Shown: one piece after another, positions 4,495 to 8,632 of the stretch
How the letters are laid out: the number at the start of each line of letters is the position of its first letter
Numbering within the stretch: position 1 is the first letter of the stretch
IMG/VR virus record: IMGVR_UViG_3300035156_000042
Span: 1-21,513 of that record
Source: a virus
Direction: 5' to 3' (one strand)
Length of the DNA: 21,513 nt
Position numbers and translations under genes: made by a program
Notes under the pieces: model-generated
What the model was told of the DNA's origin: nothing
Databases searched by the model: none
The model's input: the letters and a program-made list of their open reading frames with translations, nothing else

Positions 4495-5139
4495 TTAGGC
4501 TGCGGCGGTTTCCTTCGACTTGCCTTTCGGCTTTTCGGTCGAGGTCGGGGCAGTTTCTGCCGCCGGTGCGTCGCCGGCCAGTTCGGCCAGCAGGCTGTCG
4601 GTGTCCACGGCGTTCTTGCCCTTGTTGGCCTTCTCGGCTTCCAGGCGCTCGACGACCGGCTTGATCTTCGGGTTGTTGCGCAGGGCGACCTTCTCGGCCT
4701 GGGTCTTGGTGCCCAGGAAGGTCTTGATCTGCTCCATGGTGCGGCCCATGACTTCGACCAGTGCGCGGGCGAGGATGCTGGTGCCGGCCATGCCGTTGCC
4801 TTCGCGCTTGACCGACCATTCGCCCTTGGCCAGGCGTGCGGTCAGTTCGTCGATTGCCAGCACTGCGTCTTCGATGTCGTCCAGGCCGGCGATCTCGTCG
4901 CCCAGCTTCTGCTCGGCACCGTGAGCGGCGAACTTCAGGATCATGTCGGTCGGGATCGGGAAGGTGCGGGTCTCGCCGTTGCGGAAGTCCAGGCGGATCG
5001 ACACGACGCCGTCCTTGACGAATGCTTCTTTCAGGAGCTTGCGCTTGCCTGCGAAATCGACCACGCGGCCGTCAGTCATGGTGACGGTTTCGATGGTGGT
5101 GGCGGCTTTAGCGGCTTTGGTGTTTTCGGTGTTCGACAT
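4495..5139 (-). CDS. early phage protein, 214 aa, paralogue of the 7181-7852 product
   Basis: It is not recognised by family name. Residues about 95-190 align by eye with the 223-residue protein at 7181-7852: KGEWSVKREG versus SGEWNKRREG, then LARALVEVMGRT versus LKRALLKMYDGRK, KVALRNNPKI versus KAALRKNPKV, and DSLLAELAG versus PDLLAELDA. The C-terminus is a Lys/Thr/Ala-rich tail. It has its own strong promoter (5235-5263), a Shine-Dalgarno (GGAG before TAATAAAA-ATG) and a terminator, so it is a monocistronic unit likely made in quantity. Abundance plus a basic core suggests a nucleic-acid-binding or structural early protein (inference). Confidence 0.85.
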   Translation of the reverse strand: MSNTENTKAAKAATTIETVTMTDGRVVDFAGKRKLLKEAFVKDGVVSIRLDFRNGETRTFPIPTDMILKFAAHGAEQKLGDEIAGLDDIEDAVLAIDELTARLAKGEWSVKREGNGMAGTSILARALVEVMGRTMEQIKTFLGTKTQAEKVALRNNPKIKPVVERLEAEKANKGKNAVDTDSLLAELAGDAPAAETAPTSTEKPKGKSKETAAA

Positions 5140-6796: not shown

Positions 6797-6910
6797 AGTA
6801 CAACCAAGACGGGTCGGAGGATGGAAAAGAGGGTGCGGGGTGCAGATACAACGTACACACGGTCAAACCCTAGCCAACTGGCACGCAACACGCACGCAAC
6901 TGGCCACAAT

Positions 6911-6948
6911 AGTCCGGTCGGAATACCAGCCCGTAATTCGGTCGGATT
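6911..6948. promoter_or_regulatory. CGGTCG dyad pair, 24 bp centre to centre
   Basis: AGTCCGGTCGGAAT (6911-6924) and AATTCGGTCGGATT (6935-6948) are near-identical and each is an imperfect palindrome around a GT centre. Their centres are 24 bp apart, the same as the pairs at 8595-8632 and 16109-16146. The surroundings are non-coding. Confidence 0.5.
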
Positions 6949-7133: not shown

Positions 7134-7158
7134 AAAAACGCCCGGACTATGCCGGGCG
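7134..7158 (-). terminator. intrinsic terminator after the 223-aa gene
   Basis: Read leftward, CGCCCGG (7158-7152) pairs with CCGGGCG (7145-7139) over a six-base loop and is followed by five T. The stem is seven perfect GC-rich pairs. It lies 22 bases beyond the stop at 7181. Confidence 0.85.
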
Positions 7159-7180
7159 CTGGTGTGGAGTGGTTAGGTTG

Positions 7181-7852
7181 TCATTTCTTGGCGTCGCGGC
7201 CCTTGCCACCCTTGGACTTGGGGTCGTCCTCGGCTGGAATCTCGGTGACTTCCACCCCCTCGGCGGCGTCGCGGGTGTCTTCCATCGCGTCAAGCTCGGC
7301 CAACAGGTCTGGCATCTCCTCACCATCCTTGAGATCAGCCGCACGGAGTTCTTCGATGGCCTCAGCCACCTTGGGATTTTTGCGGAGTGCAGCCTTTTCC
7401 TTGTCGGAAAGCTTGGCCAGATATGCGTCAATCTGGTCCGGTGTCTTGCGACCGTCATACATTTTGAGCAGAGCACGTTTCAACAGGCCACCGGTCGGGC
7501 CACCTTCGCGGCGCTTGTTCCACTCACCCGACAGCAGCCGGTCCAACACGGCTTTGACCGCATCATGCTTGTCTTGCACCGTGGCGGAACGTCCGGTCTC
7601 AGGATTGCGGGTCATGGCGGCAGCATCGACCAATTTCTGTTTCAGCCCGTGCATGAGTGCCTGTCCGATGACTTCGGGGGCCAGCTCGATGGTGTCCAGC
7701 ATGAGGCCGAGACCGTTGGCGAAGTCCAGCTGGAGGATGCCGAACGGGATCTTGTCGCAATGGCCGTATTTGTGGGCTGCGCGCTCGGTGCCTTCGGTCG
7801 GGGTCAGGATGGCAACAGCGATGTCTGGCTTCTTGGTGGTGGCGTTTTTCAT
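7181..7852 (-). CDS. early phage protein, 223 aa, paralogue of the 4495-5139 product
   Basis: Its C-terminal half aligns by eye with the 214-residue protein (GEW-x-KREG, LxRALL, ALRKNPKV, LLAELD). The N-terminal 100 residues differ more: a beta-rich start (DIAVAILTPTEG), then GILQLDFANGLGLMLDTI. The tail is acidic, then Lys/Gly-rich. The start follows GAGGATTAGACC. It is followed by a terminator, so like its paralogue it ends its own unit. The parS-like site lies upstream, between this gene and the 70-residue gene. Two diverged copies of a probably abundant early protein suggest different partners or timing (inference). Not recognised by family. Confidence 0.82.
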   Translation of the reverse strand: MKNATTKKPDIAVAILTPTEGTERAAHKYGHCDKIPFGILQLDFANGLGLMLDTIELAPEVIGQALMHGLKQKLVDAAAMTRNPETGRSATVQDKHDAVKAVLDRLLSGEWNKRREGGPTGGLLKRALLKMYDGRKTPDQIDAYLAKLSDKEKAALRKNPKVAEAIEELRAADLKDGEEMPDLLAELDAMEDTRDAAEGVEVTEIPAEDDPKSKGGKGRDAKK

Positions 7853-7900
7853 GGTCTAATCCTCAGTGTGATTGTGGGCGAGATTGCCCGCTAAGCCGAC

Positions 7901-7935
7901 TGTTTCACGTGGAACAATCCGCTTAACGTGGAACC
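7901..7935. promoter_or_regulatory. parS-like centromere site plus degenerate second copy
   Basis: TGTTTCACGTGGAACA (7901-7916) matches the conserved bacterial parS palindrome (TGTTnCACGTGnAACA) at every defined position. A second copy, CGCTTAACGTGGAACC (7920-7935), matches it at 12 of 16 bases with a 19-bp offset. In bacteria ParB-CTP loads as a clamp at such sites. No parA or parB gene is visible in the window, so the binder would be host ParB or a phage protein encoded elsewhere. The site lies in the 86-base gap between two leftward genes. Confidence 0.75.
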
Positions 7936-7938
7936 CCG

Positions 7939-8151
7939 TTACATTTCGTCAGGCAGGCCGTACACGTCCGATTCTTCATCATCGCCGCACGCAATCTCAC
8001 AGTCATTCAGGAGATCGTGCAGCGCCTTGACGACGTTCTCAGGCGTGTAGTCCGTGGCTTGGGTGTTGCACTCACGTTTGATGGCCGAGAATTCCTGCGG
8101 TCCCGATGCGCGCAACAGACCCATGATAGCCTGCTTGCAAGTGTATGCCAT
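7939..8151 (-). CDS. small winged-helix-like protein, 70 aa, possible regulator
   Basis: A 70-residue protein starting at 8151 after GAGAGGGGCAACAA. The pattern resembles a minimal winged helix: helix 1 (QAIMGLLRASG), helix 2 (FSAIKRECN), a recognition-like helix (TPENVVKALHDLLND), then a two-strand wing with acidic residues (EIACGDDEESDVYGLPD). Such proteins bind DNA in regulators, though the acidic wing is unusual and could mean a DNA mimic or a protein partner. It is the first leftward gene from the divergent control region, a usual place for a switch gene. The fold call is by eye only. Confidence 0.6.
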   Translation of the reverse strand: MAYTCKQAIMGLLRASGPQEFSAIKRECNTQATDYTPENVVKALHDLLNDCEIACGDDEESDVYGLPDEM

Positions 8152-8504: not shown

Positions 8505-8594
8505 TTACGCGCATTCCGACTGGACGTGCGAGGTCCATTTTTCAAACGACCCCTGGGACTCCTCAGTCGAAAAAATAATTCAGGCTAAATTTGA

Positions 8595-8632
8595 AATCCG
8601 ATCGGATTACAGCGGGATATTCCGGTCGGGAT
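8595..8632. promoter_or_regulatory. CGGTCG dyad pair upstream of the late promoter
   Basis: AATCCGATCGGATT (8595-8608) is a perfect 14-bp palindrome. ATTCCGGTCGGGAT (8619-8632) is an imperfect one. Centres are 24 bp apart. They end about 37 bases upstream of the -35 at 8670, a position used by activators. Confidence 0.55.

Follow-up and report, generated by a model that had tools for sequence, protein, structure and literature searches.

parS and its surroundings in the window

Bacteria use parS as a DNA tag for the segregation of their chromosomes. The window analyzed here is a virus record of 21,513 bases, which is itself a fragment. In a gap between the leftward genes 7181-7852 and 7939-8151 it holds a chromosomal-type parS site, placed in a leader that folds into two hairpins (Table 1).

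Table 1. Features at and around the parS site, with positions in the window.
Feature	Position	Strand	Remarks
Intrinsic-terminator-like hairpin	7137..7160	-	Just past gene 7181-7852
Gene behind the parS leader	7181..7852	-	223 aa; conserved across the phage family; weak paralog of 4495-5139
Leader hairpin II, GGGCAATCTCGCCC	7876..7889	-	Immediately after hairpin I, ahead of the ribosome-binding site
Leader hairpin I	7889..7928	-	Arms 7921-7928 and 7889-7896, with parS as apical palindrome; stem covaries in nine phages
Exact chromosomal-type parS	7901..7916	-	TGTTCCACGTGAAACA on the gene strand; starting 64 nt ahead of the ATG of gene 7181-7852
12/16 "degenerate second site"	7920..7935	-	Overlaps hairpin I arm; unconserved in relatives; not counted as parS
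Small upstream early gene	7939..8151	-	70 aa; homologs in G054 and G066

The top strand of the site reads TGTTTCACGTGGAACA, the reverse complement of TGTTCCACGTGAAACA, and agrees with the parS consensus TGTTYCACGTGRAACA at 16/16 positions, making up a 16-bp palindrome. It is the only place in the window within 3 mismatches of parS. By a third-order Markov model of the phage family's own sequence, 1.2e-5 exact sites would be expected by chance in the window, and the same estimate comes to 8e-4 exact sites for 1.44 Mb of related sequence. A sequence-only reading of this DNA had described a parS match at every conserved position, situated in a short gap between leftward genes and very unlikely to be due to chance. 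All three statements hold, the last by the Markov estimate together with the fact that divergent relatives have parS in the corresponding position.

That reading also included a second, degenerate parS. A 12/16 match is indeed present at a 19-bp offset, as part of a direct repeat (7923-7934 versus 7904-7915, 11/12 identical), but it overlaps the 5' arm of leader hairpin I, and a site at this offset was absent from every relative's cassette examined. It was for these reasons rejected as a second parS, and the repeat is best taken for a chance match or for part of the local sequence having been duplicated.

The 223-aa protein, modeled with AlphaFold (pLDDT 73, pTM 0.45), gave no meaningful PDB match. 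Its gene and 4495-5139 encode paralogous early proteins, the latter being among the best conserved early genes of the family. The gene at the position of 7939-8151 varies between relatives, and no convincing promoter adjoining parS was identified in the window. Copies of a ATAGTCCGGTCGGAAT-like 16-mer are found on either side of the parS unit, at 6909-6924, 6933-6948 and 8617-8632, with an inverted copy at 8513-8525; these are possible operators of a phage regulator. The cumulative GC skew turns close to parS, but transcription diverges at the same point, and the turn was not taken as evidence of an origin.

Related phages and the two-hairpin leader

No near match to the window was found among cultured phages, and against bacterial genomes its terminase gave only 31-34% matches. 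By employing the terminase as query, 80 IMG/VR loci were retrieved, the early proteins added more, and a further scan of the phage family led to the same records. The closest named record is MW202489, a 40-kb circular phage genome from spring water. We counted parS by whole-record searches in 68 related virus records, nearly all of them metagenomic contigs of unrated completeness. Exact sites, which the sequence-only reading had proposed to count in relatives, occur in 7/68 records (G002, G007, G020, G054, G063, G066 and G068), and a one-mismatch site in one (G010). The reversed parS pattern, used as a control, had 0 matches in the 68 records.

The window and six relatives (L003, L137, L224, L337/L367, L352/L365 and L355/L364) share a common leader cassette, whose loop holds parS. 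As in the window, parS lies directly ahead of the 7181-7852 homolog in G002 (L003), G007 (L137) and G020 (L224), and the window, L003 and L224 also agree in its distance to the start codon, parS starting at -64. In G054 it likewise precedes this homolog, and in G063 and G066 the parS hairpin is separated from the homolog by a small gene and, after it, a hairpin that lacks parS. The one-mismatch site of G010 belongs to the same leader, with the outer stem absent. Inside the same hairpin, MW202489 has TGTTTCACGCGAAACC, with two mismatches to parS, which looks like a parS relic. Further exact or one-mismatch copies occur in the same early region of four relatives, giving 2-3 sites in some, and exact copies that have no outer stem precede other early genes in G054, G063 and G066. 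A single parS per genome was found in G002 and G007, as was one in the window fragment. Near matches within a gene in G063 and G066 lie on a conserved protein stretch and were not counted as parS. Other parS-bearing IMG/VR contigs did not have the same cassette: weak terminase matches aside, their loci have no genes in common with the window, and parS is enclosed by a stem in only a few of them.

The site is conserved in related genomes beyond chance, though its distribution is patchy. Many or most relatives have the same gene without parS, an outcome that the sequence-only reading had named as an argument for chance. The patchiness is real, but chance fails to account for parS recurring in the same leader. 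On a phylogeny built from the paralogous early protein, 7 changes are needed for the 9 parS-bearing rows out of 53, which suggests that the association between parS and the leader is either old or has been repeatedly exchanged. Since the site is missing from most relatives with the gene and is scattered over the tree, parS is not essential; since exact sites are repeatedly found in the same leader beyond chance, the patchiness points to gain and loss. In the sister phages L002 and L003, the leaders differ mainly in the stem bases and the loop, and only one of the two has parS.

The outer stem of hairpin I was analyzed in an alignment of nine hand-chosen sequences, two of them from parS-less relatives, in which 98.8% of the cells were paired and 6/9 pairs showed double-sided changes, compared to at most 42% pairing in slid controls. 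As the alignment takes in two parS-less relatives, the hairpin exists independently of parS. It is kept without the site in L002 and L138, and a covariance model located parS-less copies of it in L346 and L353, as well as second hairpin copies in L364 and L365. In the parS-less relatives, the apical sequences are unrelated to parS. Inside the hairpin cassettes, parS bases 5 and 12 are either T/A or C/A, both of which fit the consensus Y5/R12, and the TTC and TCC forms of parS both occur within the same hairpin. This variation within the limits of the consensus, together with the exact copies that have no outer stem, argues for recognition by ParB over a constraint on RNA only. The leader copy of the window had no match in Rfam. 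A two-hairpin leader, i.e. a variable stem followed by a GGGCAATYYCGCCC-like hairpin, precedes several early genes, with or without parS, e.g. at L363:419-461, L363:774-831, L364:4529-4575, L365:3439-3487 and L173:1971-2022.

The likely ligand and competing explanations

None of the ten early-region window proteins scanned has a ParB domain, in agreement with the sequence-only reading, which had seen no parA or parB in the window. Because the window is a fragment, its relatives served for the wider searches. ParA (PF13614) was found over the cut-off in 0/44 related records and in all 14 controls, and HTH_ParB (PF17762) likewise in 0/44. Neither the linked ParA nor the HTH-type ParB of a complete ParABS partition system, as in a phage-plasmid, was present in these records. 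Phage_integrase (PF00589) was not found in any of 15 related records. ParB_N (PF02195), on the other hand, was identified in 40/44 records, once in each and including the near-complete parS-bearing ones (G001, G002, G004 and G005 are among the relatives encoding one such protein). The ParB_N proteins examined are fusions with N6_N4_Mtase and have no HTH_ParB over the cut-off; they were the only ParB_N proteins that the search for ParB-like genes, likewise suggested beforehand, brought up. ParB-methyltransferase fusions are frequent in phages according to a 2025 survey (PMC12704722).

That parS is the target of the phage's own fusion protein would suit the wide occurrence of the latter, but the fusion is found equally in parS-less relatives, the one in G001 being very similar to that in G002, and it has no HTH_ParB domain over the cut-off. 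We regard this explanation as highly improbable and set the fusion aside as the preferred ligand. Of the two partners that the sequence-only reading had offered, a phage ParB-like protein is therefore disfavored, as the fusion fails to track parS, and host ParB is favored: with no ParA and no HTH_ParB over the cut-off, the host's own ParB is left as the likely, and simplest, candidate ligand.

Judged on the sequence data, the phage most likely borrows host ParB to position or hold its genome, with local repression as the main rival. The site would then be a true parS of host type that selection has retained in virulent podo-like phages that have no partition genes of their own, where it lets host ParB attach or hold the genome, an explanation to which we give an even chance. 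In such a mechanism, host chromosomal ParB would load at the phage parS as a CTP clamp and slide onto the phage DNA, and the phage genome would thereby become attached to the host segregation machinery (ParA/SMC/origin region). An infecting, stalled or dormant phage genome might in this way be held, positioned or inherited, as in phi29 with Spo0J and in SGI1 with plasmid ParB; any dormant or carrier state of the present phages would be hypothetical.

The placement in a leader is as compatible with local regulation as it is with DNA positioning. As an operator, parS would allow leader-bound host ParB to repress or gate the downstream gene, so that the phage senses the state of the host via ParB. 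This is the main rival because parS is in the leader and because the ParB of Pseudomonas aeruginosa is able to repress promoters that adjoin parS (PMC5521831). It also agrees with the constant -64 position in three phages, with the hairpin leader and the terminator-like site that follows the gene behind it, and with the extra copies ahead of other early genes in G054, G063 and G066. However, no convincing promoter adjoins parS, L002 and L138 retain the leader hairpin of the gene without the site, and other phages often carry copies outside leaders, some of them within genes; we consider an operator function rather unlikely. Both functions could be combined in a two-state switch, where DNA-loaded ParB silences the leader and tethers the genome until transcription displaces ParB and the RNA hairpin acts on expression. 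This seems unlikely to us; if true, it would couple early-gene expression to the state of host chromosome segregation.

The site could also be a decoy, by which multiplying phage genomes titrate ParB off the host origin and disturb chromosome segregation. The 2-3 exact or near-exact intergenic copies in some relatives would fit, as would the finding that the parS mimics of SGI1 cause incompatibility with its helper plasmid (PMC10954446). Yet G002, G007 and the window fragment have just one site each, and titration needs no fixed position in one conserved leader, which makes a decoy quite unlikely. Lastly, the sequence could be the apex of a structural RNA hairpin, with its likeness to parS brought about by chance or by RNA constraint. 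The strong covariation of the leader and the parS-less hairpins in L002, L138, L346 and L353 speak in favor of this. RNA structure gives no reason, however, why an apical stem should be one of four 16-mers when the parS-less apices are unrelated; C5/A12, a mismatch in RNA, is tolerated in line with the parS consensus, and exact copies are found outside the hairpin in the same genomes. A role as RNA only is accordingly very unlikely.

Known systems and parS in cultured phages

Two known systems resemble the preferred reading, in which host ParB is borrowed to position or hold the genome. The phi29 genome is acted on by the ParB of its host (Spo0J), which keeps it trapped in the spore (PMC9437464, citing Meijer et al. 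2005). Both phi29 and the phages described here are virulent podovirus-type phages, but the latter are of another family. Judged on the relatives, they appear to have the phi29-type combination of a host-type parS with neither an integrase nor phage parAB. The phi29-like phage PZA carries an exact TGTTCCACGTGAAACA, although at the end of the upper collar gene instead of in a leader hairpin. The parS-like sites of SGI1 hijack the IncC ParABS system, for which both binding and stabilization have been shown (PMC10954446). SGI1 is likewise a mobile element whose parS mimics make use of a resident ParB, but this ParB is that of a plasmid, and SGI1 is an integrative element (PMC10954446). The 16-bp consensus is identical to that of chromosomal ParABS systems, and some relatives have several copies within a few kb; the present site differs in being on a phage, in a leader hairpin and with no linked parAB. 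In the paper library searched, nothing on chromosomal parS in virulent phages came up beyond the mention of phi29. While phi29/Spo0J and SGI1 are already known, the novelty here lies in a virulent phage family having parS nested within a conserved leader of two hairpins.

Cultured phages were searched with a 30-nt query consisting of parS and arbitrary flanks, with a reversed core of the same composition as control. The parS query gave matches in 363 cultured-phage records and at 1,053 places, the latter number overstating the sites as a palindrome may be scored once per strand, compared to 15 records and 15 places for the control. A query with a second parS variant matched 323 records; these counts include many near-identical genomes. 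Matches within genes, e.g. the upper collar gene of phi29-like phages, may include coding coincidence. Among the matches listed were phages of Listeria, Bacillus, Pseudomonas, Stenotrophomonas and Actinobacteria, but no Escherichia or Salmonella phages. Recruitment of host ParB, known from phi29 and SGI1, may, as this suggests, be a general phage strategy. With hundreds of parS-bearing cultured records the question can be tested in laboratory phages, and natural sister phages with and without parS are available, e.g. G002 and G001. Examples of cultured phages with parS cores are the Gordonia phage Woes group (core near position 71.4 kb), Microbacterium phages (core near position 42 kb), Listeria phage P100 and phi29-like phages. 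In Pseudomonas phage phiPsa347, the parS core is found within the annotated terminal repeat (DTR).
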